Shown here one piece after another: positions 7,315 to 62,354 of a stretch of 64,000 nt of DNA. Numbering within the stretch: position 1 is the stretch's first letter; every line of letters starts with the position of its first letter. A program made the translations under genes and the position numbers. The stretch spans positions 1 through 64,000 of the IMG/VR virus record IMGVR_UViG_3300044691_000535, one strand, 5' to 3'. The notes beneath the pieces are model-generated. The model saw nothing but the letters and a program-made list of their open reading frames with translations. It had not been told where the DNA came from and made no database searches. Source of the DNA: a virus.

Positions 7315-9071
7315 GGCAACTGTTCCACGACTGCGAGCAAATTCGCCTCCGCCTCGCGCGCAGCCGCCGCCAACTTGCGATCCTTTTTCTGATCCAACTT
7401 GCTGTCCCGCTCCTGAAAGACAGCCCATTCCTTCGCGAATTTGCACACCGATTCCATGGGCAGATATTCGGTGAGGCGGATGGTGGTGAGCAGAGAGTTA
7501 GGATCATCCTCCACCTCCAACGGCCGAGGAATGCGCAGCGCCCACAGCTTGTCGGGCCGCTCGATCCATTCGCCGGCCGAAATGCTCTTGCCGCTGGCGT
7601 CCTCGACTTCGACGAATCGCCCGCTCTCGTGACTGGGTGGGCCGTCGAACACGATGTCGATGTAGTCGGCCTCGGCTGTCGTCTCCCGTGTTGACGGTAT
7701 CGATTCGCCGCCGACTGTGACCGACACCTCGGGCAAGTCCTCGCCCACCATCAGCTTTTGTGGCAAAGGGACGACATCGGCCGTTGGTTTCTCCCGCTCT
7801 GCCTTCAGTGCCGCCTGGTCGCGTTCTAGCTGCTCGCGTGCATCGGTGATGCGCTGAGCCTCGGCCTCACGCACGGCGTCCGCTTCGGCCTGCTTGCGCA
7901 CCCGTGCTTCGTGCTCCGCGGCGAGCCGTGCGGATTCGGCCTCCTGCTCCTCTCGGCGGGCCTGCAGGTTGAAGTTTTCTTCTGCGATGCGTTGGCGTTC
8001 CGCAGCAGCCTCCGCATCCTCAGCCGCCCTGGCTTGCGCCGCAGCGAGCAGCTCGCGGATGGCCGTGAGGGCTTGATCCTTAGCGGCCTGCGCCATGCCG
8101 GTCATCGGCCCGAAGCCGGTCTCCTCGATCGGCCACACCTCGGTCTCGGCCAACGTGTCGCGGATACACTCGATGGTGCCACCCTGGCGCACGCCCAGCC
8201 GACCACACTGCGCGATGATGACTTGCTGCTGGATGCCCTGGATCTCGGACATGCGCATCTGATTCAACTCAGCAGCGGCCCGTAGTTCGGCCGCTTCCTG
8301 TTCGCGGGCTTCGCGCGCAACTCGCTCCTCTTCGGCAATGCGCGCTCGCTCCGTCGCGGCCTTGGCCTCATTCTCTTTGCGCACCCGCTCGTTTTCGGCC
8401 CGCTCCGCAGCCAAACGCGCCTGCTCGGCTTCCATCGCTTGCGCATTCGCCAGCGCCGCGCGCAGTCGGATCAGCGTGGTGGCCTTCGCGCCTTCGGCCT
8501 GCTGACGAAATTCCGCAAAGGACTCGTTGATTTCGATGGCGACGACATCCTTGATGAGAACCTCGATCTCTGCAGCCTTGCGGTTGGTTGCGGCGAATGC
8601 GGCCTGACGGATGTCGTTCTCGATACGGCTGTGGATGTCCTCGATGCGCTTGCGCTCAGCTTCCTCACGCGCTTTCTTCTCATCCTCCTTGCGCGTCTGT
8701 TCGGCCGTGATCTGCAAGTCGAGCGGGTTCTCAATCGCCAGCAGCTCGTTCGTGATGCGCTCGGCCTCGGTATCCAACTTCTTGCCCAGGTCCAGTATTG
8801 GGCGCTTGGCAGCCTTACGCAGTCGCTCTACTTCGTAGCGTGGCTCACGGATCTCGGCGCGCGCCTCGCACGCTTCCTTCATGCCCTTCACGGTCGTGAC
8901 ATCAAATACAACGCTGCCGTATTTCGCGCGAAGGTCCGCAATGCCGGCCGCGACCTTGTCGATTTTGACGAGCGCGGTGGAGACTGCTTCGAGTTGGGTC
9001 GCGAGCGCGTTGGCCTCGGCCGGTTCAGGAACCGGTGATGGTTGTTCGGCGGGGGCAGTCTTCGGACTCAT
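7311..9071 (-). CDS. Long coiled-coil protein beside RecT
   Basis: 586 residues from ATG 9071, which overlaps the RecT stop (ATGA). Residues about 60-290 and 340-430 are Glu/Arg/Ala-rich heptad sequence interrupted by a folded segment. The C-terminal 100 residues contain FVEVEDASGKSISAGEWIERPDKLW and a charged tail. Similar coiled-coil proteins (DUF1351-like) accompany RecT/exonuclease pairs in other phages and are thought to assist recombination. The exact role is not known. One of the longest genes of the operon. Confidence 0.7.
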   Translation of the reverse strand: MSPKTAPAEQPSPVPEPAEANALATQLEAVSTALVKIDKVAAGIADLRAKYGSVVFDVTTVKGMKEACEARAEIREPRYEVERLRKAAKRPILDLGKKLDTEAERITNELLAIENPLDLQITAEQTRKEDEKKAREEAERKRIEDIHSRIENDIRQAAFAATNRKAAEIEVLIKDVVAIEINESFAEFRQQAEGAKATTLIRLRAALANAQAMEAEQARLAAERAENERVRKENEAKAATERARIAEEERVAREAREQEAAELRAAAELNQMRMSEIQGIQQQVIIAQCGRLGVRQGGTIECIRDTLAETEVWPIEETGFGPMTGMAQAAKDQALTAIRELLAAAQARAAEDAEAAAERQRIAEENFNLQARREEQEAESARLAAEHEARVRKQAEADAVREAEAQRITDAREQLERDQAALKAEREKPTADVVPLPQKLMVGEDLPEVSVTVGGESIPSTRETTAEADYIDIVFDGPPSHESGRFVEVEDASGKSISAGEWIERPDKLWALRIPRPLEVEDDPNSLLTTIRLTEYLPMESVCKFAKEWAVFQERDSKLDQKKDRKLAAAAREAEANLLAVVEQLP

Positions 9072-15015: not shown

Positions 15016-15684
15016 TCAATCTGGTGAATATAAGGCTGACTTGGAGATGCCAACGACGTAATGGACGGTGTCTATTTCAGCCTCCAATAGGGTCGTGCGC
15101 TCACCACGGATGTTTTGGACTGCTAACTGACCGTCACGTTGGTACAGGAAATCTCTGATCATGCTCTGTCCGTCCTTTGTAATTATTAAGACTTCTTCGC
15201 CCGCGACGAGCGCGTGTTCCGGCTCGATTACGACATATTCCCCGGATCTAACTCTCGAATGGGTGGTGTCGCCGACGATGCGTATCGCGTAAGCCCCTCG
15301 ATCACGTGATGGCATGTTGATATATCCGTCCCCAGTGCCCGCTGGATGTTGTGTTTGCCGCTTTCCGTAGCCCTCCTTGCCGATATGTATCGTCCCTTTC
15401 ACAGGTATGCGTAGCAAACTGTACTCCGACCGTTGAACGGATTTAGCGATTTTTGACTCGTCAAGTTTCGATCTCTCGGGAACGGCGCCGACCAACTCAT
15501 CAATGCTTCGACGGAATAGTCGTGCCGCGGCTGCGTGCCGCTCAGCAGGTAACCCGCGCTTTTTCCAATTCGTCACGTGCCCGGCCTCGACCCCCATCTT
15601 ATGCGCAAGCTGGACTTGATCCATGCCTGCATCCCTCATCCAGCGGATTAGGCGGTCAATCGGTCTTTCTTCTTTAGTTGACAT
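15016..15684 (-). CDS. CI-type repressor, S24 fold, predicted non-self-cleaving
   Basis: 222 residues. N-terminal HTH (DQVQLAHKMGVEAGHVTNWKKRG, about 22-44) binds DNA. The C-terminal half has the LexA/S24 fold (GAYAIRIVGDTTHSRVRSGEYVVIEP). At the catalytic positions the usual GDSM serine is Thr140, the catalytic Lys 37 residues later is Arg177, and the Ala-Gly cleavage site is Ile101-Gly102. The 37-residue spacing matches LexA Ser119-Lys156, which supports the alignment. Autoproteolysis is therefore unlikely. Probable targets are the TAAACA-N3-TGTTTA sites on both sides. Divergent from the Cro-like gene. Confidence 0.85.
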   Translation of the reverse strand: MSTKEERPIDRLIRWMRDAGMDQVQLAHKMGVEAGHVTNWKKRGLPAERHAAAARLFRRSIDELVGAVPERSKLDESKIAKSVQRSEYSLLRIPVKGTIHIGKEGYGKRQTQHPAGTGDGYINMPSRDRGAYAIRIVGDTTHSRVRSGEYVVIEPEHALVAGEEVLIITKDGQSMIRDFLYQRDGQLAVQNIRGERTTLLEAEIDTVHYVVGISKSALYSPD

Positions 15685-22004: not shown

Positions 22005-22208
22005 ATGGGCGTAGTCAACTTGCCGAAAGTCGAAGTGGTCACGTGGGCCGTGTACCAACCCGGTCAGTTCTCACCGGTCGCCTGGGTCGAGGCGAGCAGC
22101 TATGAGGTCGACGCGGAGACGCACATCCTGACCTTCCATCGTGACGGCAAGGTGCAGAGCGTATGGCATAGTTGGTGTCACATCGAGAGACAGGAGGAGT
22201 CGCACTGA
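22005..22208 (+). CDS. Small hypothetical protein
   Basis: 67 residues, beta-rich (VEVVTWAVYQPGQFSPVAWVEASSYE). GAGGAG lies 8 bases before the ATG. No domain recognised. Confidence 0.5.
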   Translation: MGVVNLPKVEVVTWAVYQPGQFSPVAWVEASSYEVDAETHILTFHRDGKVQSVWHSWCHIERQEESH

Positions 22209-22209
22209 G

Positions 22210-22701
22210 ATGACAAAGCCAATTCCCTTGACGCAATGGCAAGCAGCAACATTGCCAGAAGAATTACCGCGTCACATACGTCGTAGCATCGCCAAAGGTC
22301 CGGATGGATGTTGGCTGTGGATTCGATCAAAGAGTCGCGATGGATACGGCTGGACGAGTTTCGATAACAAAACATACCAAGCGCATCGGTTGGTTTATAC
22401 GCTTTTGCGTGGCAAGCCACGTAAGGACTTGCAACTGGACCATCTATGCAGAGTGCGTCACTGTGTCAATCCAAATCATCTGGAGCCGGTAACATGTCTG
22501 AAAAATCTCATGAGGTCTCCACTGACTCCGGCTGGAATGGAGACATGCGCGAAAGGTCATCAGTTCATACACAACGGTCATCAGCGCCGATGCCCAACAT
22601 GTCTAGCGGAATACGAGGCAACGGAAGAAAGGCGGCAGAAACGGCGCAGGGATTGGAGGAATTGGTTTGCCCGTCAAAAAGCCAAACAAGCAACTGTGTG
22701 A
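22210..22701 (+). CDS. HNH endonuclease (probable homing type)
   Basis: 163 residues. GCWLWIRSKSRDGYGWTSF, AHRLVYTLLRGK, then DHLCRVRHCVNPNHLEPVT gives the HNH core common to phage homing endonucleases. A C-terminal C-x2-G-H...C-x2-C set (CAKGHQFIHNGHQRRCPTC) is a zinc finger. Its AT-richer codons and Lys content differ from neighbours, suggesting recent arrival. Overlaps RusA by GTGA. Confidence 0.82.
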   Translation: MTKPIPLTQWQAATLPEELPRHIRRSIAKGPDGCWLWIRSKSRDGYGWTSFDNKTYQAHRLVYTLLRGKPRKDLQLDHLCRVRHCVNPNHLEPVTCLKNLMRSPLTPAGMETCAKGHQFIHNGHQRRCPTCLAEYEATEERRQKRRRDWRNWFARQKAKQATV

Positions 22702-24807: not shown

Positions 24808-25311
24808 ATGGCTGAAACGCCCAAATTGTTCATGTCCGAGACGACACGCGAACCGACGAAAGCGACACCTGAAAAGCTCGATGAGTTTTTGTCTGCGCTG
24901 GCGGAAACCGCGAACGTCTCAGCAGCGGCGCTTCAGGTCGGGATCAATCGGCAGTACCTGTACCACCTGCGAGATAACGACCTGGTGTTCCAAGGCCGCT
25001 GGGAAGCCGCCGTCAAACTCGGTACCGCCGCCCTCGAGGACGAAGCCGCACGCCGCGCGAAGGACGGCTGGGACGAGCCCGTGTTCTACCAGGGCGAGCA
25101 GTGCGGACTGGTCCGCAAATTCTCCGACACGCTGCTGATCTTTTTGCTCAAAGCCCGGGACCCCAAATATCGCGAGCGTCTGGCTCTCAGTACGCCGCCC
25201 GGTGAACCGCTGCAATTCCAACATGTCGATGCCCTCACCGATGCGGAACTCGCGCTTATCGCCAGCCGAGGCCGCGCAACACCTGCTGAACCGCAGACGA
25301 GCGAGGACTGA
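24808..25311 (+). CDS. terS: Putative terminase small subunit
   Basis: 167 residues. The N-terminal half has an HTH-like segment (LAETANVSAAALQVGINRQYLYHLR) followed by RWEAAVKLGTAALEDEAARRAKDGWDEPVFYQGE, a pattern common in small terminase subunits. Directly precedes the large subunit. Would recognise phage packaging sites (pac/cos) and load the motor. Confidence 0.75.
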   Translation: MAETPKLFMSETTREPTKATPEKLDEFLSALAETANVSAAALQVGINRQYLYHLRDNDLVFQGRWEAAVKLGTAALEDEAARRAKDGWDEPVFYQGEQCGLVRKFSDTLLIFLLKARDPKYRERLALSTPPGEPLQFQHVDALTDAELALIASRGRATPAEPQTSED

Positions 25312-26839
25312 TCCGGAAACCTTCGCCGGGATTATCGATGTCCCCGGTCGCCCGCTGTCAGACGATCCTGACACGGAGTTGTTCGCGCCCGTCGAAACCA
25401 ACCTCGCGGTCCACCACATCCTGATGCTGGCCGCGATGGAGCGCATCTCGGGGAGACGCTACGGACGGGGCATGTTCTTCATGCCGCCCGGTAGCGCGAA
25501 GACGACTTACGCGTCGGTCGTTTATCCCAGCCACTACATGGGGAAGCGTCCGCGCTCGCGACTGGGTGTGATCAGCTACGGTCAGGACCTGGCCAAGAAG
25601 ATGGGCCGCCGGACGCGCGCCATTTGCCGACAGCCGCGCTACAACGCGATATTCAACACCACCATCTCACCTGACTCGCACGCAGGTGACCTGTTTTCGC
25701 TGACCAATGGTAGCGAGTACATGGCCTCGGGTTGGTCTGGTATCACGGGCAATCGCTTTGATGGCGCGATTGTGGATGATCCGGTCAGCGGCCGTGCGTC
25801 TGCCGAGTCAGAGCCCGATCGAGAATCTACTTGGAACGCCTACACCGACGACCTGTTGTATCGGTTGGTTCCGGGCGGCTGGCTCGTGATCATCATGACA
25901 CGCTGGCACCAGGAGGATATCGCCGGGCGCATCCTTCCTGAAGATTGGCAGGGCGACTCAGGGATGTTTGAATGCCGCGATGGCCGGCAGTGGGAAGTGT
26001 TGAATCTGCAGGCCAAGTGCGAGACCACCACGGATCCACTGGGCCGCAAGATCGGTGAGTACCTGTGGCCTGAATGGTTCGATCAGTCGCATTGGGTGCC
26101 CTTCGAGCGGATCCCACGCTCATGGAATTCGCAGTGCCAGGGCCGGCCGCGTGCGGTGGAGGGCGCGTTCTTTCACGAGAACGACTTGTTGGTACGGACG
26201 GATATTGTGGGCGCGGATGGGCAGCCGATCTATGTGCCCATCGAGACGCCGACCCGTGTTGACTTCGTGTATGCCGTGATCGACTCGGCCATGAAAACGG
26301 GCCGGGCGCATGACGGTCTGGCCGTCACGTTCTTTGCGCGTTCGATCCTCAACACGGCCAACCCGCCGCTGGCGATTTGCGATTGGGATTACACGCAGAT
26401 TCAGGGCGCGTTCCTGAACAAGTGGCTGCCCAGCGTATTCACCCGTCTTGAAGCGCTAGCCCGTCAGTGCCAAGCCTTCAAGGGCAGTGCAGGCGCGTTC
26501 ATCGAGGACAAGGTCTCGGGTACGATCCTGTTGCAACAGTCGACGCAGCAACCGGATTGGAATCCGGACTGGGTCACGCATGCCATCGATTCGAAGCTCA
26601 CGATGTTGGGCAAGAAGGAACGCGCGCTCAATGTGTCCGGCCACGTCGCAGCCGGTGAAGTGAAGATGACGCGGCAAGCGTACGAGCGCGTCGTCACGTT
26701 CAAAAACTCCACCAAGAATCACATGCTCTCACAGGTGTTGAATATGTCCATGGAAAGCAAGGACACTGACCCGGACGATTTGCTCGACTGCTTTTCTTAC
26801 TCGATTGCCATTGGTTTGGGAAATTCTGACGGCTTCTGA
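25223..26839 (+). CDS. terL: Terminase large subunit
   Basis: About 538 residues; the exact start is uncertain (Met codons at 25223, 25229, 25241), overlapping the small subunit. ATPase: Walker A-like FFMPPGSAKTTYA and Walker B FDGAIVDDPV, with a coupling-type MTRWHQEDIAGR. C-terminal RNase H-like nuclease with acidic residues in VYAVIDSAMK, ICDWDYTQ and DPDDLLDCF. Pumps DNA into the prohead and makes the cuts. Unusually, the next rightward late gene is not the portal, which lies 7.6 kb further on. Confidence 0.9.
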   Translation: MSMPSPMRNSRLSPAEAAQHLLNRRRARTDPETFAGIIDVPGRPLSDDPDTELFAPVETNLAVHHILMLAAMERISGRRYGRGMFFMPPGSAKTTYASVVYPSHYMGKRPRSRLGVISYGQDLAKKMGRRTRAICRQPRYNAIFNTTISPDSHAGDLFSLTNGSEYMASGWSGITGNRFDGAIVDDPVSGRASAESEPDRESTWNAYTDDLLYRLVPGGWLVIIMTRWHQEDIAGRILPEDWQGDSGMFECRDGRQWEVLNLQAKCETTTDPLGRKIGEYLWPEWFDQSHWVPFERIPRSWNSQCQGRPRAVEGAFFHENDLLVRTDIVGADGQPIYVPIETPTRVDFVYAVIDSAMKTGRAHDGLAVTFFARSILNTANPPLAICDWDYTQIQGAFLNKWLPSVFTRLEALARQCQAFKGSAGAFIEDKVSGTILLQQSTQQPDWNPDWVTHAIDSKLTMLGKKERALNVSGHVAAGEVKMTRQAYERVVTFKNSTKNHMLSQVLNMSMESKDTDPDDLLDCFSYSIAIGLGNSDGF

Positions 26840-26989
26840 TTAGAGAAGTAATCCGTTCTTTTGCGCGAACGCAATCGGATCTTTATTGTGTTTCTGTAGA
26901 TTGCATTTCTGGCATGTTAGCTGAAGATTAGACCGGCCATTGCCGCCGCCTTTCGATACGGCAGTCCTGTGGTTCAACATGATATCCAT
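26840..26989 (-). pseudogene. HNH endonuclease remnant
   Basis: On the minus strand, the C-terminal part of an HNH nuclease remains: MLNHRTAVSKGGGNGRSNLQ then LTCQKCNLQKHNKDP, with the second H, the N and a C-x2-C. The N-terminal half is missing; the upstream sequence merges with the next gene's leader. It lies exactly at the left edge of the block between terminase and portal. AT-richer than its neighbours. Confidence 0.7.
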
Positions 26990-27051
26990 CGCTAATGTTG
27001 TAGAAATCGCCATCGGTCTAGACAACCCCTTTTCTCGAAGGAGCTTTCCTC

Positions 27052-27648
27052 ATGCTGACCCAGTTCCGAAAACTCGTGATGCCGCTGCTGCTCGTTGCGC
27101 TGGGCGTGTTGTCGGTGGTGTCTGCGCCGCCGGTGCAGGCTGCGGCGACGTCGAATTATTTCCAAAATCATGTTTTGGACGCCACGTTTCGCGGTCAGAC
27201 TGCATTGACCCCGGCGACGGTCTATGTGGGGCTCTATACCGCGACCGCGACCGCGCAGAGCTGCACAGGTGAGGTATCTGGCGGTTCGTACGCTCGTCAA
27301 GGCGTCACAAGTTCCCTCGCCAACTGGGCGGGTACCCAGGGAGCGGGCACAACTTCGGCCTCGAGTAACGCGAGCGGATCCACTGGGACGACCAGCAACA
27401 ACGCGGCAATTACATTTCCAGCGCCAACGGCAAATTGGACGACAATCACAACGTTCTGCCTATACGACGCTGTTTCCGGCGGCAACGAACTGATCTACAG
27501 TGCATTAACGACCCCGAAGACAGTCAACTCCGGGGATGCTGCCCCGGCCTTCGCAGCCGGAGCCCTAACGATAACAATCGGCGCTAACCTGCACGACCAC
27601 TGGGCTCTGCAAGCTGCCAATGACGACACGTTCGCGCAGGCAGCCTAA
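27052..27648 (+). CDS. Signal-peptide protein with a phage structural-type domain
   Basis: 198 residues. The N-terminus is a Sec signal (RKLVMPLLLVALGVLSVV...VQA-AA). The remainder (NHVLDATFRGQTALTPATVYVGLYTATAT...GGSYARQGVT) is a domain usually found without signal in phage tail/fibre-type proteins. If exported, it could decorate the cell surface rather than the virion. It follows the HNH remnant with a GAAGGAG site just before the start. Confidence 0.68.
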   Translation: MLTQFRKLVMPLLLVALGVLSVVSAPPVQAAATSNYFQNHVLDATFRGQTALTPATVYVGLYTATATAQSCTGEVSGGSYARQGVTSSLANWAGTQGAGTTSASSNASGSTGTTSNNAAITFPAPTANWTTITTFCLYDAVSGGNELIYSALTTPKTVNSGDAAPAFAAGALTITIGANLHDHWALQAANDDTFAQAA

Positions 27649-27661
27649 CTTCGAGGTTCCC

Positions 27662-28093
27662 ATGAAACTCGCCATCCTGACTGCTGTTGTCCTTGCCGCT
27701 AGCGCTCTCAGTAGCTGTGGCCAATCCGACGCCAAGCCCAAAACCCATCACGACGTCACCGCGCTCGCCGCCCAGGCCAAAGGCGAAGTCATCGTCATCG
27801 GCACGCTCGCCACACTGGGCTCGTTTGAATGGACAGCCAGTCCGTTGAAGACGCACGCCGCCGCAGGCCTCAAACACATCCCCCAACTCCTGCATGACCA
27901 CAAGCTCACCAAGGAACAAGCGCAGGCGAAGCTCGACCAGATCGACGCCGCGCACGACTTGATTGAGCAAGCGCTGAAGGTATGTAAGCAGAACGATCAC
28001 ACGGGCAAGTGCGCGGGCGATACCGTTAAAGCGCAGGCATTACTCGATCAGGCACGAAATGACTTGGCCATCGCCGACCAGGGGTTGAACTGA
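27662..28093 (+). CDS. Predicted lipoprotein
   Basis: 143 residues from ATG 27662 (GAGG upstream). Signal peptide MKLAILTAVVLAASALSSC ends in a lipobox (ALSSC). The mature protein is helical and charged (LTKEQAQAKLDQIDAAHDLIEQALKVC), with two Cys. Probably anchored in the inner or outer membrane of a Gram-negative host. Function unknown. Confidence 0.7.
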   Translation: MKLAILTAVVLAASALSSCGQSDAKPKTHHDVTALAAQAKGEVIVIGTLATLGSFEWTASPLKTHAAAGLKHIPQLLHDHKLTKEQAQAKLDQIDAAHDLIEQALKVCKQNDHTGKCAGDTVKAQALLDQARNDLAIADQGLN

Positions 28094-28094
28094 C

Positions 28095-28319
28095 ATGAGC
28101 AAAATCGCAGTCTCTGACGCCGCCGAGTACGCCAAGATGTTGGTGAACGGTATAGCAGGCATCGCGGGAAGTGATCCGAACGCGGTGACTGAATCCATCG
28201 ACCAACTGGCTGCCGCAACTCCAGCCGGCGCGAGCTTCGATCTCGATGCGACGGCGGAAGCGGACTATCAGGCCGCCAAGAAAGCAGCCCAGGCCGCCAT
28301 CGACGCCGCCGGCCAGTAA
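28095..28319 (+). CDS. Small hypothetical helical protein
   Basis: 74 residues, Ala-rich (ADYQAAKKAAQAAIDAAGQ at the end). One base after the lipoprotein stop, so co-translated. No domain recognised. A 7-bp inverted repeat (CCGGATG...CATCCGG, 28334-28356) lies in the short gap that follows. Confidence 0.5.
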   Translation: MSKIAVSDAAEYAKMLVNGIAGIAGSDPNAVTESIDQLAAATPAGASFDLDATAEADYQAAKKAAQAAIDAAGQ

Positions 28320-28374
28320 CCCCATGCCCCGGTCCGGATGCCTGACCCCCATCCGGCGCATGTCGAGTTGACTC

Positions 28375-30870
28375 GTGACCGCTGCGATTCGACAAGTCTT
28401 CCTCTACGATCCCGGCAACGGCATCTCGTCCTCGTCGCCCAAGAGTTTCAGTGTGTCCGCATTGCCTCAGGGCAATGTGTTGGCCGGCTCCACGCTCATT
28501 GGAATGCCGACCTGCAGCAATTTTGTTGGCATCATTGTCTGGCAGGTCAACGACTCTCAGAACGGCATCTACGCGCCGCTAGATGTGGAGCGAGATCCGG
28601 CCAATGTCAGTTTCGGCAGTTACTACCAGAAGAACTGCGCCGCGTTGTCCTCGACGGATACGGTCACACTTCATTTCGGCCCATCCAATGGAACCGATGG
28701 CACCGAAGATTTTTACGGGATGGTCTTCATCGAAGTCACGGGTGTCACCGCGACTCCGCTGTTGGATCACAAAGGTAACCTTCAGACCGTAGCCTCAACC
28801 ACCGCCGATGGCGTGACCAGCACTGCTCTGACCTGCGGGGCGGTCGCCGGCATCCTCATTGCCGCGTCCTACCAGACCACGCAAAACGGCTCAACACCCT
28901 TTGAGCCCAATGCGGGTACGGGCTTTACCAGCGGCGGCACCGGCTTTGTATGGAGCCTTGCAGGTCCGGTGGTGAGAGTCGAATCGCTGCACTCGACGAA
29001 CCTCGGCACACGCGCGGCGACCTTCACGCCCTCAAGTGCGACCTCTGACAACTATGTAACGCTCGCGGTCGCGTTGCTAGAGACGACGACGGGCGCAGCT
29101 GCGTTAGCCGGGACGCCTGCCGTGGCCAGTGCCGCGACCGGTGCGCTGTCTACAGGCATTGCTTTGAGCGGCACGCCCGCAGCCTCGGTCGCCGCCAGTG
29201 GAACGCTGCACGGCGTGAGTGCGGCCCTGGCTGGTGGCGCGGTGGCATCGAGTGCAGCCACCGCAGGGCTGAGCACGGCCATCCAAGCGGCCGGCAGCGC
29301 ATCTGTTGGGGTCGCAGCCTCGAGCAGCTTTGCGGTGCGTGCCTATCGGCCCTCGCGTGTCGACGTCGCGATCTACAAGCCCAGCTACGACGGTCAGTAC
29401 TGGGGACGGTATCCGAATGGGGATAAGCCGCAGATGGCGGGGGCGGTTTCGATCGCCGCGGCCGTCAGTGGGGCGCTCAGTACGGGCATCAAGATGGCCG
29501 GTGGGGCTGCCGCAGCGGTAGCGGCGAGCGGCGCTTTGACGACGGGCGGGGGCGGCAGTCTGGGCGCCGTGTCCAACTTCCAACTCGTCAACCAGGGCGG
29601 CACGACCAACAGTGCAGGGACCGTCACGTCCCCCTTGATGCAGCAGACGATCGTGTGGACGGCCGCAACGGGTCCTGTCGATCACTACCAGATCATTCGG
29701 CGCACGAACTACGGGGCGGATGTGGACTATGCCACCGTCGCGTCCACACAGCTCTACTACACGGACACGGCGTGCACTAACTTCTTCAGCGCCGGCAACA
29801 TCGATCAGGGCGCAGGTGCGGCAGCCACGGGTCCCACGACAGTCTATGACTACGATGTGGTGGCCGTCGATGCCAGCGGTACCCGTGGGGCCAAGCCTGC
29901 GCAGTTCACCATGTGGGCTTATCGCGGTGGCATCTCGGGCACGGCAACCAGTGGCAGCACGACGACGATTGTCGATACGGGCAAGAGTTGGACGGTCGAC
30001 CAGTGGGTCGGCTATCACGTCTTCGATAAGACGGCCGGTACCGATAGCATCGTCCTGACCAACACCTCGAACACGCTGACGATGGTGCCGGGATTCGCGT
30101 TCGTCGCCTCGACCTCGGGTCACGGCTACCAGATCGGCGGCGACTACTTCAGCGGCGTCGGAGACCTCTCCTTCGGCATCGTGGTGCCGAATGACTTTGC
30201 GAATGCCGGGGGGTCACCGATCGCCCCGCATGCGTTCTGTTTGAAGATGACCCACGATGCCACGGGTTCCGACAACGCAGCGTTGCAGCGACCGTCTGCC
30301 AGTCCCGCCAGTTTCATCTATGGGGCGGAGATTGGTGCGTTCAACTACACCCAATTCAATCAGCGGCCGAGCCTGACCAATCAAGCCGGCGGCTTTGCAC
30401 TGCATCACCGCGGGCCCATTGGCGACCTGGCCGGGCCGCATACCTTCATCGACTCGGTAGCGATCCTGGCGTATGGACCGACCCCGGTGGCCAACACCTG
30501 GGCTACCTACAAGATCCCTTTCTCGGCCATCCAATGCAGTTCCCCGTTGGGAGGAGTGACCAACTTCTCAGGGTCCATCACCGGCTCGACATTGACCGTC
30601 ACCAGCATTGCCTCCGGTCCCGGCATCGACAACGGCTGTTGGATCACCGGCACTGGCGTACCGACCGCCACCTACGTGAATCCATCGCCGTCGCAGACCG
30701 GGGTGGGCACCTACACGGTGGCCGGCGCCGGTATTCCGGTCACCGGCACGGTGAGCTTCACGAATGGACAGGCCTGGGCAACCAACTGGTACAAGGGCCA
30801 GTACTACGATCGCGCGAATGTGGCGGGGAATGTGACCTATCTGGATGACATCGGCCACACGAGAAGCTGA
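28375..30870 (+). CDS. Large modular repeat protein with surface-binding-type domains
   Basis: 831 residues from GTG 28375. N-terminal jelly-roll-like domain (1-240). Then 20-residue Ala/Gly repeats (GALSTGIALSGTPAASVAAS type, about 245-320). A linker carrying YWGRYPNGDKP follows, more repeats (about 360-385), an FnIII-like domain (NFQLVNQGG...YDYDVVAVDASG), a WTVDQWVGY domain, and a C-terminal domain with LAYGPTPVANTWATYKIPF. The YGP part is shared with the products at 2620-3336 and 63501, and the QWVGY part with 41934-42611. Likely a virion-associated or secreted adhesin; not a known family. Confidence 0.65.
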   Translation: MTAAIRQVFLYDPGNGISSSSPKSFSVSALPQGNVLAGSTLIGMPTCSNFVGIIVWQVNDSQNGIYAPLDVERDPANVSFGSYYQKNCAALSSTDTVTLHFGPSNGTDGTEDFYGMVFIEVTGVTATPLLDHKGNLQTVASTTADGVTSTALTCGAVAGILIAASYQTTQNGSTPFEPNAGTGFTSGGTGFVWSLAGPVVRVESLHSTNLGTRAATFTPSSATSDNYVTLAVALLETTTGAAALAGTPAVASAATGALSTGIALSGTPAASVAASGTLHGVSAALAGGAVASSAATAGLSTAIQAAGSASVGVAASSSFAVRAYRPSRVDVAIYKPSYDGQYWGRYPNGDKPQMAGAVSIAAAVSGALSTGIKMAGGAAAAVAASGALTTGGGGSLGAVSNFQLVNQGGTTNSAGTVTSPLMQQTIVWTAATGPVDHYQIIRRTNYGADVDYATVASTQLYYTDTACTNFFSAGNIDQGAGAAATGPTTVYDYDVVAVDASGTRGAKPAQFTMWAYRGGISGTATSGSTTTIVDTGKSWTVDQWVGYHVFDKTAGTDSIVLTNTSNTLTMVPGFAFVASTSGHGYQIGGDYFSGVGDLSFGIVVPNDFANAGGSPIAPHAFCLKMTHDATGSDNAALQRPSASPASFIYGAEIGAFNYTQFNQRPSLTNQAGGFALHHRGPIGDLAGPHTFIDSVAILAYGPTPVANTWATYKIPFSAIQCSSPLGGVTNFSGSITGSTLTVTSIASGPGIDNGCWITGTGVPTATYVNPSPSQTGVGTYTVAGAGIPVTGTVSFTNGQAWATNWYKGQYYDRANVAGNVTYLDDIGHTRS

Positions 30871-32363
30871 TGCCCACCCCCCCGTACTCTCCCGCGCGGA
30901 TCGAGATCTCGATCCCGAAGGCAAGCTCCGACGGGCTATATTGGGGTCGCTATCCGAACGGAGATCATCCAGGCGGTTTAGCAGGATCCGCAGGAGCGGG
31001 GATATCGGCGGGTGGCATTCTGACCACCGGCTCGCGGGTGTCGGGCGCAGCCTCAGTAGGTTCGGCGGCGAGTGGAATCCTGACAGGCGGCAGCCCTGGC
31101 TCAACCCTGAAGTTTCATCCGGGCTTCTATGGCTCGTTTGACTATTCCGGCAGTGTGAACGCCACGCGCTTCAATGGCAGCGATCACAGCGTCATCAATG
31201 CGACGGTCACCAACCCGTCCGTGGGGGTGGCCACCGATAACCTGATGGGCTTTGCATTCATCCTGCAGTGGCCCGCCATCGACACCGGAACCTCGGCGCC
31301 GAACTACGATTGGACCGTCGTCGACCTGTATGCGAATGCGATCAAGGCTAAGAACAAACAGTGGTGGCTGTGGATCAACTGGTCCGGCTTCGTCGCCAAC
31401 AACTCCAATGCGAGTGTGACCACCGGGGCCAGCTGTGTGCCGCAGTGGCTGCTCAACAGCCAGGGCGCTTTCGCCACGCTGGGGAATTATCGGCGCTCGG
31501 ATTTGAATCCGCCGAGTGCCCCGGGCGCGGGCGTGTTCGCGAAGCTCTATAACGCGCCGGTGTTGAATGCCTACATCGCGTTCATGCAAGCGGCAGCCGC
31601 ACGCTACGACAACGATCCGAATTTCGAAGGCTTCATCCACGGGATCGGGACCGCTAATCCGTCCTTCAACGGCGTGGATACGCTGGGTACCCATCAGGCG
31701 CAAATCAACTACAACTCGGATTACACCGATGCAGGCATGGTGGCGGCCTTCAAGTCGATCATGTCGCGTGGACGCGCGGCCTTTGCGAAGTCCAACATCT
31801 GGCTCACGACGGACTATCTGTTCAATGAGGCAGGTTCCAGCAGTTACAGCGGGCAGGATGTCAGTTGGACTGACGTCTGTAACACCGCCGTCGTCAACAA
31901 ATGCATCCTGGGAGGCGTGGATAGTTGGACTAAAAACTGGATTTACCTGCAAACGCCCTTCACCTCGACCGGTCAGAACGCCTATGCGACCGTCACCAAC
32001 ACGAATTTCCACCGCGGCGTGTATTCGGATCAGGTGATTCGCGGCTGGCGTAGTGCGACGCCGGGGGTAGGCTTAGGCTTTCGCGGCCGGATGCTGTTCG
32101 CCGGCTGCCAGGAACTGACCGAGATGGGGGGCTACATCGGCCAGTTCTCAGCGGCCGATATCTGGAGCTACCGCGGCGCCGCCCTCGATAACGTGCATTA
32201 CATGTTCTATGACGTGGGCACCGCGCAATCGGGTAACTACGGCCTGAACAAGGCGCCCAACACGTTCTGGAATGCCGCCACGTCCTACGATGCGACGTAC
32301 GGCCAAAGTGTCTATCGCTTCATCCAAGGGGCTGGGCGGACCAACACAGTGAATCCATATTGA
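30870..32363 (+). CDS. Glycosidase-like protein with the shared YWGRYPNGD linker
   Basis: 497 residues; ATG overlaps the preceding stop. Residues 1-75 repeat the linker and Ala/Gly modules of the previous gene. From about 75 the sequence looks like a TIM-barrel glycoside hydrolase: FAFILQWPAIDT, NKQWWLWINWSG, AAAARYDNDPNFEGFIHG, WLTTDYLFNEAG. The last two hold candidate catalytic Glu residues. It could depolymerise capsule or lipopolysaccharide sugars, but the class and activity are inferred from pattern only. Confidence 0.6.
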   Translation: MPTPPYSPARIEISIPKASSDGLYWGRYPNGDHPGGLAGSAGAGISAGGILTTGSRVSGAASVGSAASGILTGGSPGSTLKFHPGFYGSFDYSGSVNATRFNGSDHSVINATVTNPSVGVATDNLMGFAFILQWPAIDTGTSAPNYDWTVVDLYANAIKAKNKQWWLWINWSGFVANNSNASVTTGASCVPQWLLNSQGAFATLGNYRRSDLNPPSAPGAGVFAKLYNAPVLNAYIAFMQAAAARYDNDPNFEGFIHGIGTANPSFNGVDTLGTHQAQINYNSDYTDAGMVAAFKSIMSRGRAAFAKSNIWLTTDYLFNEAGSSSYSGQDVSWTDVCNTAVVNKCILGGVDSWTKNWIYLQTPFTSTGQNAYATVTNTNFHRGVYSDQVIRGWRSATPGVGLGFRGRMLFAGCQELTEMGGYIGQFSAADIWSYRGAALDNVHYMFYDVGTAQSGNYGLNKAPNTFWNAATSYDATYGQSVYRFIQGAGRTNTVNPY

Positions 32364-32378
32364 GGAGGGCGTGAATTC

Positions 32379-34454
32379 GTGAGCATCACGCCGGTCCAAG
32401 TATCGACGCCCGGGTCCTTTAACGGCAGTCTCACGACGACCACGACGTTGACTGGAGTCACGGCCGGCAACCACATCCTCGTGGCGGCGATGCATGGGGA
32501 CACGGGGGGCACGGGCCCGAGCCTCTCAGCTTCGGATGCGCAGGGCGCCTATGCGTCCGATGTGCTCGTGACGGAATTGGGTGTTGCGACAGCGCAGATT
32601 TTCAGACTGGCTGCGGCGACTGCGGGCACGCATACCATCAGCGTGGTGGCCAGCGGGGGATTGGCGGCCAACAGCGAAGGCGAGATTGTCGCATTTGAGG
32701 TGCCCCCGGTCGCGCTCGACCAAAGCAACACGGGTGGGGCCAGCTCCACCACGCCGAGCGTAGCGGCCACGGCGGCGCTGGCTGCGAGCGGTGACCTTGC
32801 CATTGCCGCGCTCTTTCACGTGAATATGAGTAGCGGCGGGGGCACCTTCCCGCCCACGGGTGGCACGGGCACCTACACTGCCGCCGTTGCGCACACCAAC
32901 CAGAGTGATGCGGACTATCAGACCCTGAGCAGCACCGCCGGGGTGGGCGCGAACTGGGGCACGATGAGTGTCACCGGCAAGTGGGCCGCTGCGGTAGCGG
33001 CTTATAAGGCCGGCGTGAATCCGATTGCAGGCACGGCCACAGTCGCCACGAGCGCGGCCGGCAATCTGCAGGCACTCTCGGGCGCCCCCTCGGTGACGAG
33101 CTCGGCCAGCGCCGCCCTGACCACGGCCATCCGGGCCGCCGCCAATGCCACGGTGACCACCGGCGTCGTGGGAGCGCTGACCAATTGGGCCACCGTGACG
33201 CTCGCCGGGACGCTGTACACCGGCACCGGCGGCATCCTGGATCCGAATTTCTGGCTGGACGTGCTGCCGACCGACGGCTCGGTGCTGTTTTACGACGCCA
33301 CCAACATCACGATCTACGCCAATGGCGAGATCAGTTCCACGAGCAACAACTGCTCGGCCGTGGTGCAGTTCTTCGACGGCACCGCCTGGTCGTACGGCCT
33401 GGTCATCCTCACGCCCAACATGGTCTCCTATGCCCATGTGCTGACCGCTGCGGCGGGGGCGCTCAGTACGGGCATCGCGATTGCGGGCGCGGCGCTCGTG
33501 GCCGCCCAGGCCGCAGGCGGGCTCTCCACGGCCATTCACCTGGCCTCCATTGCACTCGGGGTGACGAACGCCGGAGCAGCGCTCACCACGTCGATTCAGT
33601 TGAATGCGGCGGCGAATGCCAATACGGCGGCCACGGGGGCGCTCTCCGGCGGCGTCGCCTCTTTGCAGGGCTCCGCCGCGGCGCTGTCCACCGCCTTCGG
33701 TGCGCTCACGACGAAGATCCAGGACGCCGGCCAGGTCCTCATCAACTCGCAGGCCACCGGATCCCTGACCGCGCAGATCGTTTTCTCGGGGGCCGTGACG
33801 GCGCTTACGATGGCGAGCGGCCAGTTGACTGCGGCGATTCAGTTCGCCGGCAACGCCAATATCGTGGTGACGGCGGCCGGGGCTGCATTGATTCAAAGCG
33901 CATTCGCAGGCGCGGCCAACGTCGCCTCCACGGCCATGGGCTCGTTGGTGACCGGCCTCTTGATCGCCGGCCAAGCGCTGGTGAGTGTCACGGGAACGGG
34001 GGACCTGAGTACCGGCATCACCTTGGGCGGTGCGGCGGTGGTCGATACGGCCGCCTCGCTCAAACCGGTGGGCCTCGAAGGGCAGTTCGGCCGGGCCGAC
34101 ATCAACATATTCAGCAATACCGGACTACCGGTGGCGCTCGCAACCTTCCCCGCCAATTCGGCCTGCATTGTCAGCATCGCGTATTTCAACGCCCAAGGAC
34201 TGCCGTTCGTGCCCAATCAGGTCAGCTACCGGGTGGATGATGTGGCGAGCGGGAGCAACCTCGTGCCGTTGACCGCGATCTCGCTCGTCGCGCTGTCCAA
34301 TGCGATCACGATCGCGGCCGCGCAGAATTCGATGGTCAACAACACGCGATCATCCGAGTTGCACCAGATTGTGTTTGAGATCATGGATGGGCTGGGTAAT
34401 GAGAGTCTGGCCTCTGAGGTGTATGGGTTGATTCGGTTGGCGGGGATGAATTAG
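32379..34454 (+). CDS. Large solenoid repeat protein
   Basis: 691 residues from GTG 32379 (GGAGGG upstream). The N-terminal 200 residues form a jelly-roll-like domain (NHILVAAMHGDTGG...WAAAVAAYKAG), similar in kind to the start of the 28375 product. A WLDVLPTDGSVLFYDATNITIYANG domain follows. Ten consecutive 20-residue repeats occupy about residues 360-560. The C-terminal Ig-like domain (INIFSNTGLPVALATFPANS) resembles polymer-binding virion domains. Probably a fibrous surface or tail-associated protein. Confidence 0.62.
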   Translation: MSITPVQVSTPGSFNGSLTTTTTLTGVTAGNHILVAAMHGDTGGTGPSLSASDAQGAYASDVLVTELGVATAQIFRLAAATAGTHTISVVASGGLAANSEGEIVAFEVPPVALDQSNTGGASSTTPSVAATAALAASGDLAIAALFHVNMSSGGGTFPPTGGTGTYTAAVAHTNQSDADYQTLSSTAGVGANWGTMSVTGKWAAAVAAYKAGVNPIAGTATVATSAAGNLQALSGAPSVTSSASAALTTAIRAAANATVTTGVVGALTNWATVTLAGTLYTGTGGILDPNFWLDVLPTDGSVLFYDATNITIYANGEISSTSNNCSAVVQFFDGTAWSYGLVILTPNMVSYAHVLTAAAGALSTGIAIAGAALVAAQAAGGLSTAIHLASIALGVTNAGAALTTSIQLNAAANANTAATGALSGGVASLQGSAAALSTAFGALTTKIQDAGQVLINSQATGSLTAQIVFSGAVTALTMASGQLTAAIQFAGNANIVVTAAGAALIQSAFAGAANVASTAMGSLVTGLLIAGQALVSVTGTGDLSTGITLGGAAVVDTAASLKPVGLEGQFGRADINIFSNTGLPVALATFPANSACIVSIAYFNAQGLPFVPNQVSYRVDDVASGSNLVPLTAISLVALSNAITIAAAQNSMVNNTRSSELHQIVFEIMDGLGNESLASEVYGLIRLAGMN
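33458..34060 (+). repeat. Ten tandem 60-base coding repeats
   Basis: Each unit encodes about 20 residues of the form L(S/T)TxIxLAGxAxVxxxAxGx, for example LSTGIAIAGAALVAAQAAGG, LTTSIQLNAAANANTAATGA and LTAAIQFAGNANIVVTAAGA. One unit has 21 residues. The regular hydrophobic spacing suggests a beta-solenoid or fibre shaft. Two further weaker units lie before the inserted domain (33040-33180). Confidence 0.75.
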
Positions 34455-34456
34455 CC

Positions 34457-35980
34457 GTGGCGAGCGAAGTTGGAATCAGCGGCTCGAAGCTCAGTACGCC
34501 GCTGCTCGAAATTTTGATGGCGGATGAGATTCAGCCGGGCTCGGAAGTTTCATACCAGTTAGCAAAAACGATCTATACACATCATCCGCTGGGCCAAAAA
34601 ATGGCCGAAGCACCGATCACGGTGGCGCAGAGCCAGGATCGCAAGATTACGGTGCAGAATGCGCCCGAAGAGGTGCCGAAGGACTATCTGTCGGAGTGGG
34701 AGCGAATCGGCGCCAACGACTACATCAAGAATACGGGCGCGTTGTCGCGTGTGTACGGCATCGCTTCCATCGTGTTGGGCTGCACAGGAAAGTCATCCGA
34801 ACTGCCACTCGACATGGATAAGATTTGGGACCTGCCGATTTTCTTCAACGTGTTGGACCCTCTGAACACAGCGGGCTCGATGGTGCTGAATCAGATACCG
34901 AATTCGTCAGATTTCCAAAAGCCCATCCGGGTGACGACCAACGGGGAGACCTATCACGGTTCGCGCTTCCGGGTGCTAATGAACGAGGCGCCGGTGTACA
35001 TCGAGTACACGTCCTCGGGATTCGGCTACGTGGGGCGCTCGGTGTATCAGCGCGCGTTGTATCCGCTGAAGTCGTTCATTGGAACGATGATCGCGGATGA
35101 CATGATCTCGACGAAGCTGGGGCTGCTCATCGCCAAGATGAAGTCACCTGGCTCAATCGTCGACGGCATTATGTTGAGGGTCGCCGGCATCAAACGCTTC
35201 TTCCTGAAGCAAGGTCACACCGGCAACGTCATGGCGATCGGTCACGACGAGGCGATCGAGACGCTGAACATGCAGAATGTGGAGGGCGCCGGCGGTTTTG
35301 CGCGCACCAACATCCTGAAGAACATCGCCACCGCTGCCGACATGCCGGCGAAGCTCCTTGAAAACGAGACTATGGTGTCCGGGTTCGGTGAAGGCACCGA
35401 GGATGCGAAGAACAACGCGCGCTACATCGACGGGATTCGAAAGAAGTTGGGGCCGCTATATCAGTGGTTTGACAACATCGTGCAGTACCGCGCGTGGAAC
35501 CCTGAGTTTTACAAGCGCATGCAGGCGAACTACCCGGAACAGTACGGGAATCGCGAGTACTTGGATGTGTTCAGCGAGTGGCGGCGCAATTTCTCGGCTG
35601 AGTGGCCTTCGCTGTTGATAGAACCCGAAAGTGAGCTTTCCAAGGTCGACGCGGTCAAGTTTGAGATGTTGATTGCCACCGTGCAGACCGCGTTGCCCGT
35701 TCTCGATCCGGTCAACAAGGCCATTGCGATTCAGTGGCTGGCCGACAGTGTGAGCCAGAATAAGCGTCTGTTCCCGCTCGGCCTGGACTTGGATGGCGAC
35801 GAGTTAAAAGCGTTTCTCATCGAGGAAAAAGACCGCTCGAATGAGCAGCAGGACGCCGCCCTTGAGCCTGATGCCGTGGCCAGCAAGATGGGCAAGTTTG
35901 ATTCGGCGCGGCCTGTCCTGAGCAATCTGCGGCGGGCTGTGGGGCAGCTGCCAGCCAGAATTACAGGTGCACGAGCATGA
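34457..35980 (+). CDS. Portal protein
   Basis: 507 residues from GTG 34457. Belongs by pattern to the DUF1073-type portals: EWERIGANDYIKNTGALSRVYGIASIVLG, FNVLDPLNT near 130, RFRVLMNEAPVYIEYTSSGFGYVGRSVYQRAL, and GAGGFARTNILKNIATAADMPAKLL followed by GFGEGTEDAKNNARYIDGIR. Forms the dodecameric DNA channel in the prohead and docks the terminase. Overlaps the next gene by ATGA. Confidence 0.85.
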   Translation: MASEVGISGSKLSTPLLEILMADEIQPGSEVSYQLAKTIYTHHPLGQKMAEAPITVAQSQDRKITVQNAPEEVPKDYLSEWERIGANDYIKNTGALSRVYGIASIVLGCTGKSSELPLDMDKIWDLPIFFNVLDPLNTAGSMVLNQIPNSSDFQKPIRVTTNGETYHGSRFRVLMNEAPVYIEYTSSGFGYVGRSVYQRALYPLKSFIGTMIADDMISTKLGLLIAKMKSPGSIVDGIMLRVAGIKRFFLKQGHTGNVMAIGHDEAIETLNMQNVEGAGGFARTNILKNIATAADMPAKLLENETMVSGFGEGTEDAKNNARYIDGIRKKLGPLYQWFDNIVQYRAWNPEFYKRMQANYPEQYGNREYLDVFSEWRRNFSAEWPSLLIEPESELSKVDAVKFEMLIATVQTALPVLDPVNKAIAIQWLADSVSQNKRLFPLGLDLDGDELKAFLIEEKDRSNEQQDAALEPDAVASKMGKFDSARPVLSNLRRAVGQLPARITGARA

Positions 35981-41409: not shown

Positions 41410-41934
41410 ATGCCCCGACTATTTATCTGTAACACCTCGAAGCAGCACCACGATTTCACCTACAAGCTGCCGCACGAAAACACCTTTCGCATGGAGTCCA
41501 TCCGCTCCGGATCGCAGATTCGTCTGGCCGTGGACATGACACCCGATGTGATTGCGGAGATCATTCATCAGCACACGCCCTACGGCCTGAAGGACGCTAC
41601 CAAGCTCTCCAACGTCAAGGAGTACGTGGGCTTGTGCTACAGCATCGACAAGCCGGTGCCGTTGGATAATCTGCTGTACCTGTTCGAGACCAATGGCCCG
41701 AAGCTCAACGAGCGCGCGCAGGCCAAGCGCGAGGAGGTCGCCGTCGCCACTGCCGAGCAGCTGTCCGACAAGATGCAGGAGTTGGGTGTCAGCGTACCGC
41801 GCACGGAAGTCACCATGGAGGAGGATACCAAAGGGACGCAATCGATCAATGAGGGCTACGAGGTGACGCAGTCCGGAGTGGCATCCAAGCACGGCAGTGC
41901 GCGCAGCAAGCGAGCTGACCGCCGCGCCGGCTGA
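41410..41934 (+). CDS. Hypothetical head protein
   Basis: 174 residues from ATG 41410 (GGAG upstream). Basic middle (KEYVGLCYSIDKPVPLDNLL) and a charged C-terminus. No domain recognised. Placed after the capsid gene, where head-tail connector genes are found. Overlaps the next ATG by one base. Confidence 0.58.
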   Translation: MPRLFICNTSKQHHDFTYKLPHENTFRMESIRSGSQIRLAVDMTPDVIAEIIHQHTPYGLKDATKLSNVKEYVGLCYSIDKPVPLDNLLYLFETNGPKLNERAQAKREEVAVATAEQLSDKMQELGVSVPRTEVTMEEDTKGTQSINEGYEVTQSGVASKHGSARSKRADRRAG

Positions 41935-42611
41935 TGTTCGCGAATTCCACCACCCCCAACCTGCCCGACTACCTCTTCTTCCTGTCAGCCGTGGCCGGGA
42001 TTCCGCCGGTCGCCACCCCGGCTGTCTTCCCCACGTTGGTCAGTACCACCACGGGCGGCGACACGCTCACGCTGATTGATGTGTCGCAGAATTGGGAGCC
42101 TGCTCAGTGGGTCGGGTATTCGGCCGTGGACTCGACGCAAAACGAGGCGGCGTCCATTGCCTCCAATGCCATTACCTCGCTGACCTTTACGATGCCGCTC
42201 GCCAATCCGATTGCGCCAGGGGATCAGTACCTGATTGCGCCGGACATCGTGCTGAGCTCGCTGGCTATTGCGCTGGAGATCGTGAACGAGGTGTTGGCCT
42301 GCGCGTCGCCCCGCATCTACACGCTGGCGGTGTACAACCTGGCGACGGATCGGTTGATCAACTTTGCGCCGGATGTGCCGGGGCAGACGTTCTTTCAGGA
42401 CTTGCGCGGGCCTAAGAAGTTGAACCTCACGAGCGTGAGTGTTGGCGTGCCATCTCAGGCGAGTGATCAGGGCACCGCCACCGGTATCCTAAATCCGGAG
42501 CAGATGAAGACCTTCACACTGCAGGACCTGCAAACATTGAAGACCCCGTGGGGGAGGGCGTACATGGGGTTTGCTTCGGCATATGGGCCGAGTTTGTGGG
42601 GACTCTCGTGA
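41934..42611 (+). CDS. Head-tail connector-region protein with a shared module
   Basis: 225 residues. The segment LIDVSQNWEPAQWVGYSAVD, followed by a strand pair, repeats a module in the 28375-30870 product (DTGKSWTVDQWVGYHVFD). The C-terminus (LNPEQMKTFTLQDLQTLKTPWGRAYM) is helical and conserved-looking. Probably a structural component near the neck; function not proven. Confidence 0.58.
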   Translation: MFANSTTPNLPDYLFFLSAVAGIPPVATPAVFPTLVSTTTGGDTLTLIDVSQNWEPAQWVGYSAVDSTQNEAASIASNAITSLTFTMPLANPIAPGDQYLIAPDIVLSSLAIALEIVNEVLACASPRIYTLAVYNLATDRLINFAPDVPGQTFFQDLRGPKKLNLTSVSVGVPSQASDQGTATGILNPEQMKTFTLQDLQTLKTPWGRAYMGFASAYGPSLWGLS

Positions 42612-46590: not shown

Positions 46591-47979
46591 ATGTCTTACT
46601 CGATTGTCCAAGAGATCGTCTCCGAGACCGTCGCTCCTGCGCCGATCACCTATCAGGCCACCGGCGCGATCGTGTCCCAAGGCGCGACCACGATCCCGAC
46701 GGGTACGTCTCAACTGCTCACGCAGAAGTCTGACCTGACGCAATACCTACCCGCTCCCTTAACGATTTCCAGCATCACGTGGAGTTCCGGTACGGCCCTC
46801 GTCACCGCAGGCGCCACCATCCCCGGTCGCACCGCAGGCGACGTGTTCACGACCACCATCGCAGGCGTTACGCCGGCCGGCTACAACGGCTTGGTCCGCG
46901 CAACCGTGACGGGCGCGAACACGCTCACCTATGCGCTGCTCTCCAATCCCGGCGCTCAGACGGTGGCGGGCACCTACACGGTACCTGGCGTAGGCGAGCT
47001 CGTGGCGCAGATGAATACGTTTTATGCGCAGGGCAGTCAGCAGTCGGTCTACGTGCTCGAGCTGGGGGCCGGGGACCAAACCACGGGACCTGCCGCGCTC
47101 GGTACGTGGGATGCGACGAACCCGGACATTTTCTACAGCTATCTGGTGCCGAAGGGCTGGGATGCGAGCGCGGGCCTCACGGCCCTGATGGCGAGCTACC
47201 AAGCGCTCAACGCACAGAAATACTTCTTCATTACCTCGAAAGTGAGCACGTACGCCGCCGCATACTCCGCTTTGCAGAAGTGCGGCTATGTGCTGATTGA
47301 AGCCCCTGGCACGCCGCTCACCGAATTCAGTTGCGCCGCCCCGTTCCAGCGCTCGTTGGCCTATGCGCCGTCTACCACTAACCGCATGACGCAGTTCCGG
47401 TATGCGTTCCTGTTCGGTGTGACCCCATACCCGACGTTCAGCAACGGCACGCTGCTCACCACCTTGCAGAACGCCAAGGTCAACGTTATTGGGACGGGTG
47501 CCGAAGGCGGCATCAGTACGGCGGTCAACTGGTGGGGCACGATGCTGGACGGAAACGATTTCTCCGTCTGGTACGAAATCGACTGGATCCAGCTTCAGTG
47601 CGATCAGGCCGTTGCAAATGCCGTGATCAACGGCTCCAACGATCCTCTCAATCCGCTGTACTACAACCAGCCTGGCATCAATCAGTTGCAGGACGTCACA
47701 GTCCAGACGGTGCAGAACGCGATCACCTTTGGCCTTGCGAACGGGACCTCAGCGCGTGCAGCGATGGATGGCCCCGTGTTCTCCAATGCACTGGCGACGG
47801 GTCAGTTTCTGGATCAGGACGTGGTCAACGCGGTGCCGTTCATCACGTACATCCAGGAGAACCCGGCGAACTACGAGGCAGGGTTGTATGGAGGGCTGTC
47901 GGTGGTGTTTATTCCACAGAAGGGGTTTTCGAAAGTGATTTTCAACATCAACGTCAACTTCAACCCCGGCGCAGCCTGA
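46591..47979 (+). CDS. Contractile tail sheath protein (DUF3383-like)
   Basis: 462 residues, GGAG before the ATG. The ends fit DUF3383-type sheath: SIVQEIVSETVAPAPITYQATGA at the start and FVPFITYIQENPANY-like (VPFITYIQENPANYEAG) with IPQKGFSKVIFNINVNF at the end. A beta-sandwich insert (SSGTALVTAGATIPGRTAGD to VAGTYTVPG) occupies residues 58-130. Gene order sheath, tube, chaperones, tape measure supports contractile-tail identity. Confidence 0.8.
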   Translation: MSYSIVQEIVSETVAPAPITYQATGAIVSQGATTIPTGTSQLLTQKSDLTQYLPAPLTISSITWSSGTALVTAGATIPGRTAGDVFTTTIAGVTPAGYNGLVRATVTGANTLTYALLSNPGAQTVAGTYTVPGVGELVAQMNTFYAQGSQQSVYVLELGAGDQTTGPAALGTWDATNPDIFYSYLVPKGWDASAGLTALMASYQALNAQKYFFITSKVSTYAAAYSALQKCGYVLIEAPGTPLTEFSCAAPFQRSLAYAPSTTNRMTQFRYAFLFGVTPYPTFSNGTLLTTLQNAKVNVIGTGAEGGISTAVNWWGTMLDGNDFSVWYEIDWIQLQCDQAVANAVINGSNDPLNPLYYNQPGINQLQDVTVQTVQNAITFGLANGTSARAAMDGPVFSNALATGQFLDQDVVNAVPFITYIQENPANYEAGLYGGLSVVFIPQKGFSKVIFNINVNFNPGAA

Positions 47980-62350: not shown

Positions 62351-62354
62351 TTCG

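Follow-up and report, generated by a model that had tools for sequence, protein, structure and literature searches.

What occupies the 7,617 bp that separate the gene of the large terminase subunit (TerL) from the portal gene in this virus, and how did it come to be there? The window considered here, i.e. the whole stretch of DNA that was analysed, comprises bases 1–64000 of a 65,252-base virus record, and its tail sheath (46591–47979) and baseplate wedge (54181–55395) genes show that the phage is contractile-tailed. Both borders of the interval, TerL ending at 26839 and the portal starting at 34457, were confirmed by Pfam and PHROGs where the original prediction had placed them, and an HNH remnant, a signal-peptide protein, a lipoprotein and three large modular proteins were indeed found in between. 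A 74-aa ORF was missing from that first list and is included in Table 1. Labels such as L017, L025 and L295 denote loci that were compared in the analysis.

Table 1. Features of the block between the terminase and portal genes (positions in the window).
Feature	Position	Strand	Evidence
Terminase large subunit (TerL), left border	25202..26839	+	PF03237, E 3.5e-8; phrog_38, E 5.6e-62
HNH endonuclease fragment, N-terminally truncated	26840..27025	-	PF01844, E 1.6e-8
Gp80-family fibre, Sec signal peptide at its N-terminus	27052..27648	+	PF23140, E 9.6e-38; PDB 8jou, E 4.5e-11
Predicted lipoprotein	27662..28093	+	lipobox; homologues in L025, L017, L019, L128
74-aa ORF	28095..28319	+	ORF list
p831, 831-aa modular fibre-like protein	28375..30870	+	phmmer to L025 and L017 proteins
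p497, 497-aa protein with RYPNG N-terminal module	30870..32363	+	sequence comparison
p691, 691-aa repeat protein with C-terminal p120 domain	32379..34454	+	relatives in L025, L017, L019
p120 domain, Ig-like beta sandwich	34068..34451	+	AlphaFold pLDDT 92, pTM 0.84
Portal, right border	34457..35980	+	PF06381, E 2.4e-14; phrog_146, E 8.8e-46

The genes of the block are all co-directional except for the HNH fragment, and no promoter-like site was seen within it. Their third-codon GC (0.67–0.82) is like that of the adjacent head genes, and the composition of the block gives no sign of recent foreign import.

To place the interval among its relatives, about 120 loci were gathered, nearly all of them with related portals. 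That terminase and portal genes are normally adjacent, as the original prediction assumed, holds in most of these: the interval is 0–755 bp, with a gap of 0 bp in the cultured Shewanella phage QDWS and of 12 bp in the cultured Yersinia phage 06.16-1, and the distance in the window is far outside this range. The portal tree comprises 81 sequences, of which 16 have long intervals of differing content, spanning 1.3 to at least 10 kb (the length being a lower bound where TerL lies beyond the locus end). Fourteen of these 16 fall into one supported clade of 23 portals, which also holds nine short intervals, and a minimum of four switches between the short and the long state is required by supported branches. 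The junction is thus a variable locus in this clade and not the site of a single insertion.

Cassette parts of the window's block recur in other phages. The closest in layout is the block of L035/L017, which is colinear and runs from gp80 through a lipoprotein, a 74-aa ORF, three signal-peptide proteins, a RYPNG protein and a repeat-p120 protein to the portal; between the 74-aa ORF of the window and the one at the same place in L017/L035 no sequence match was found. The comparison did not reveal one and the same block in all relatives, nor ordinary packaging or head proteins in it. The expectation of surface or virion-type proteins undescribed as a unit is borne out, in that the block, an additional and variable element, codes for surface or virion-fibre proteins. 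Judged by its predicted products, it is a re-shuffled fibre/spike cassette rather than random cargo.

Some further observations concern the two border genes. TerL is a mosaic, whose C-terminal nuclease half is conserved with the portal relatives and whose ATPase half comes from other lineages: Pan3/Mwe-JY13 match its residues 23–327 only, and QDWS residues 321–545 only. Such mosaics were noted in L006, L009, L010 and L012, the two halves being separate ORFs in L010. As to the portal, L050:3813-4703 is, by eye, an N-terminal piece of a portal joined to a GIY-YIG-like domain, with a full portal gene following immediately, and the portal of L016:792-2170 lies in two frames, from either a frameshift or a sequencing error.

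We now turn our attention to the way in which the block arose. The original prediction was that it is cargo carried in by a homing endonuclease, of which the HNH fragment would be the remnant. The fragment does stand at the block border, and homing-type genes recur in the interval of relatives (HNH in L124/L025, HNH/AP2-like in L027, GIY-YIG-like in L050), so that the interval may be a hotspot for them. However, the 61-aa piece is truncated, since its match begins at position 12 of PF01844 (positions 12–47 of 47) and the N-terminus of the HNH domain is thus missing; the ORFs read in the blocks of L017/L035, L019, L040 and L002 include no homing gene; and the third-codon GC resembles that of the neighbours. 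Entry by homing is thus highly improbable. A second HNH endonuclease (PF13392) is encoded at 22141–22701, upstream of the packaging genes.

The description of the block as inserted cargo stands as far as its extra and variable nature is concerned, but it is too simple, because the C-terminus of p691 exists in simpler relatives as a small resident gene beside the portal. This part, p120, comprises the last 120 residues of the protein. In simpler relatives (L005, L010, L029, L097, L027, L028) it is a stand-alone gene directly before the portal, which indicates that the block grew at, and was partly fused to, a resident gene. It forms the C-terminus of other long proteins in L002, L017, L019, L025 and L096, and is also found before TerL in L089 and downstream of the portal in L050. 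In the PDB the p120 model resembles nothing more specific than Ig/macroglobulin-like folds of a generic kind (TM not above 0.61), and in BFVD an unnamed 118-aa viral protein (TM 0.79/0.85). The only hint that it could be an adaptor between fibre and tail of the GP4 kind is a p120-like gene before a leaderless Gp80 in L022. Elsewhere in p691, at aa 245–560, a 20-aa repeat occurs about 12 times (period 20, z 3.7), and no match to the protein was found among phages.

The two other large proteins are modular as well. Both contain a module recognisable by the signature xDGxYWGRYPNGDKP, and a version of this module is likewise found after the signal-peptide Gp80 genes of L130, L133, L141, L128 and L019. 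In p831 this RYPNG module (aa 323–396) is accompanied by an N-terminal beta region, repeats, an Fn3-like stretch and, as judged by eye, a jelly-roll/CBM-like C-terminal region. The protein has no match in the PDB. Its domain at aa 520–591 is shared with the gene at 41934–42611 of the window (phmmer), a 225-aa gene of the head/tail region whose positional counterparts in relatives carry the domain too. In p497 the module is conserved at aa 5–79 and is the main part in common with the relatives in L025 and L017, while the remainder is largely private, as is commonly seen where a binding or enzyme domain has been swapped. Searches of Pfam, the PDB, PHROGs and phages gave no match and no further viral relatives for p497, and its AlphaFold model is unusable (pLDDT 30). 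The homologue in L035 matches GH42 at only E 0.067, a faint sign that the private C-terminal region might be a glycosidase-type barrel. None of p831, p497 and p691 has a signal peptide.

The protein that had been listed simply as carrying a signal peptide is a Gp80 fibre (PF23140, 129.9 bits against a cutoff of 27), present in one copy in the window. It also matches the phrog_240 head protein, and its residues 31–174 align to residues 2–137 of the 8jou chain, the solved member of the family and a virion protein of the Ralstonia podophage GP4. Directly before the fibre domain is a 30-residue signal peptide (27052–27141), MLTQFRKLVMPLLLVALGVLSVVSAPPVQA, with A as the next residue, which has a basic n-region, a hydrophobic h-region and an AxA-type site, and whose start codon is preceded by the Shine-Dalgarno (SD) sequence AAGGAG. 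The signal peptide stops where family members usually start (MxAxSDYL...). A leaderless start at the fibre domain is a usual, not a family-defining, trait of PF23140, and the window protein departs from it.

The window protein has a cysteine pair, Cys71 and Cys136. Among the 69 distinct Gp80 domains sampled at first, exactly two cysteines were present in 19 of 19 with a leader and in 0 of 50 without. A second scan, seeded from a different Gp80 branch, raised the total to 117 distinct domains from viral contigs, and the pair was found in 48 of the 50 with a signal peptide and in 1 of the 67 without; these counts, from metagenomic contigs with identical domains merged and signal peptides called by a home-made rule, are not independent, the Gp80 sequences being related; near-copies inflate them, and starred branches give just two independent pairs. 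The sole leaderless domain with the pair (L285) has its N-terminus cut by the contig end. The two signal-peptide members that lack it are L273, where one cysteine is gone by an internal deletion, and L244, which has no cysteine. Among bacterial genomes Pfam gave one Gp80 with both leader and pair and three with neither, so that the association agrees in 4 of 4, and five cultured-phage or plasmid-borne homologues have no leader and at most one cysteine each. PF23140 matched in one genome among eight hosts of the portal relatives, and the signal-peptide form was not found there.

The pairs occupy three arrangements of alignment columns, 51 and 123 (n = 14), 45 and 121 (n = 22), and 46 and 138 (n = 12), and with the columns of the first arrangement removed an AU test rejects a single origin of the signal-peptide group (p 0.033). 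Between close relatives, the codon changes in the leader at positions 1, 2 and 3 number 77, 49 and 131, counted over 14 pairs some of whose members are shared; the signal-peptide codons are, by this kind of comparison, translated and under purifying selection. Our search of open-access papers returned none on signal peptides in tailed-phage fibres. As far as the predicted leaders go, the signal-peptide Gp80 proteins are a previously unnoticed branch of a virion-fibre family, and this branch seems to have acquired its export signals on more than one occasion.

The next gene encodes the predicted lipoprotein. Its ORF opens at 27620 (27620–28093), and the real start is probably at 27662. The signal peptide leads into a lipobox (MKLAILTAVVLAASALSSC; LSSC, lipid Cys19), and both Cys19 and a Cys108/Cys117 pair are conserved in the homologues. 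Gp80 and lipoprotein neighbours recur in L017, L025/L124, L019 and L128, and in L132, another phage type, a different lipoprotein (8511-8933) directly follows a signal-peptide Gp80. We have also considered an o-spanin (Rz1-like) role and rejected it: the protein has 143 aa, no i-spanin neighbour was seen, and the sole phrog lysis match has E 0.22. An endolysin-like gene lies apart from it, near 60.9 kb. Just past the lysis region is a class 3 lipase gene (62313–63212; PF01764, E 1.9e-16), followed from 63501 to about 64124 (L295:3802-4425) by a 207-aa leaderless protein that by eye resembles the signal-peptide CBM-like L025:5569-6264. At the record end, L295:4928-5542 on the minus strand looks by eye like a fragment of an acyltransferase-3-like membrane protein, which may modify the O-antigen or may belong to host DNA at the flank.

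Export signals are not confined to these two genes. With a home-made rule in place of SignalP, signal peptides were called in 16 of 49 block genes and 5 of 86 downstream genes of nine phages (p 6e-5) when an SD was demanded; without the SD demand the figures are 23 of 49 and 8 of 86. The signal-peptide block proteins contain 1.6 Cys per 100 aa against 0.93 downstream. The mature cysteine count is even in 17 of the 21 that bear cysteines, compared to 36 of 70 controls, and in 19 of 21 once the lipid cysteine of two lipoproteins is disregarded. All block genes of L040 pass the rule, among them that of a p120 protein and that of a protein ending in an S74 tail-spike chaperone, and a signal-peptide protein in L042 carries a pectate-lyase spike domain. 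These domains, known from tailspikes and fibres, differ from the known cases in that a signal peptide precedes them and their genes lie in the TerL-portal interval, and they point to a virion ancestry of the signal-peptide block proteins.

Our preferred explanation, which we hold with somewhat more confidence than doubt, is that one phage clade built up a fibre/spike cassette within its late operon, at the terminase-portal junction, with the Gp80 fibre and the lipoprotein exported, disulfide-bonded and used around lysis. The two would cross the membrane via Sec late in infection and become disulfide-bonded in the periplasm, whereas p831, p497 and p691 would stay cytoplasmic as virion fibres attached through p120. 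The fibre would be produced and oxidised away from the compartment of virion assembly and would serve during or after release, most likely meeting the virion or host surface glycans as the envelope opens at lysis. Export, oxidation and timing are here inferred from sequence features. It is important to note that the leaderless large proteins split the block between two compartments, which counts against this explanation.

If the hydrophobic N-termini were start-site artefacts or uncleaved anchors, the block would simply encode ordinary virion fibres, in keeping with the virion association of the Gp80 family and the members without signal peptide. The SD upstream of the Gp80 leader, its conservation at the codon level and the cysteine pairs found with it make this unlikely. 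A surface-modifying moron, causing lysogenic conversion in which adhesins or glycan-active proteins appear on the lysogen surface, would account for the lipoprotein and the exported fibre, and an S24/YdaS-type regulator (15016–15684) suggests a temperate phage; yet the block has no promoter-like site, lies inside the late head operon, includes several proteins without signals and is linked by p120 to portal-proximal genes, so that we consider this scenario very unlikely.

A more serious competitor, possible and on balance doubtful, is that the exported Gp80 fibre and lipoprotein are not virion parts and act in the host envelope by masking or blocking receptors, serving superinfection exclusion or shielding progeny from debris. 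T5 Llp, a lipoprotein, and T4 Spackle are phage proteins sent to the envelope; they are likened to the window proteins by function alone, being small inhibitors without a virion-fibre domain, unlike Gp80. This proposal gains from the export of a receptor-type domain beside a lipoprotein, from the recurrence of the pair and its different partner in L132, and from the precedent of exported exclusion proteins such as T4 gp61.3 (PMC7650644) and T5 Llp. Against the proposal are the single Gp80 copy, its place among co-directional late genes lacking a promoter-like site, and the L040 and L042 blocks, where whole spike/fibre gene sets with signal peptides exceed the need of an exclusion factor. Of the two readings, fibres that mature in the periplasm and attach to virions upon lysis or exported fibres acting on the envelope (exclusion, receptor masking), the leaderless p831, p497 and p691 are a better fit to the virion-joining one, provided that p120 serves as a virion anchor.

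Tailed-phage virions are held to assemble in the reducing cytoplasm. GP4 fibre I (8jou) shares the full-length Gp80 domain with the window protein, and differs in that the latter and about 50 relatives have a Sec-type signal peptide at the start, almost all of them together with the cysteine pair. The neck fibre of Anabaena phage A-1(L), formed by gp80–gp82, is portrayed in PMC10966104 as a multi-gene, bead-like structure with a distal carbohydrate-binding module that attaches to the neck near the portal. The window block is likened to it by description, the shared name gp80 being a coincidence of gene numbering, and the parts of PMC10966104 that describe it mention no signal peptide.

In a broader and only tentative proposal, some of the receptor-binding fibre parts of tailed phages would be put together beyond the cytoplasm, with Sec export, periplasmic disulfides and attachment only at lysis, a signal peptide having been joined several times to the Gp80 domain with a new cysteine-pair arrangement in each main group. 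The terminase-portal junction is a marked site of fibre diversification. If export holds, either virion maturation has a stage outside the cytoplasm or phage fibres have been re-used as envelope proteins, and either outcome would change the reading of late phage genes.
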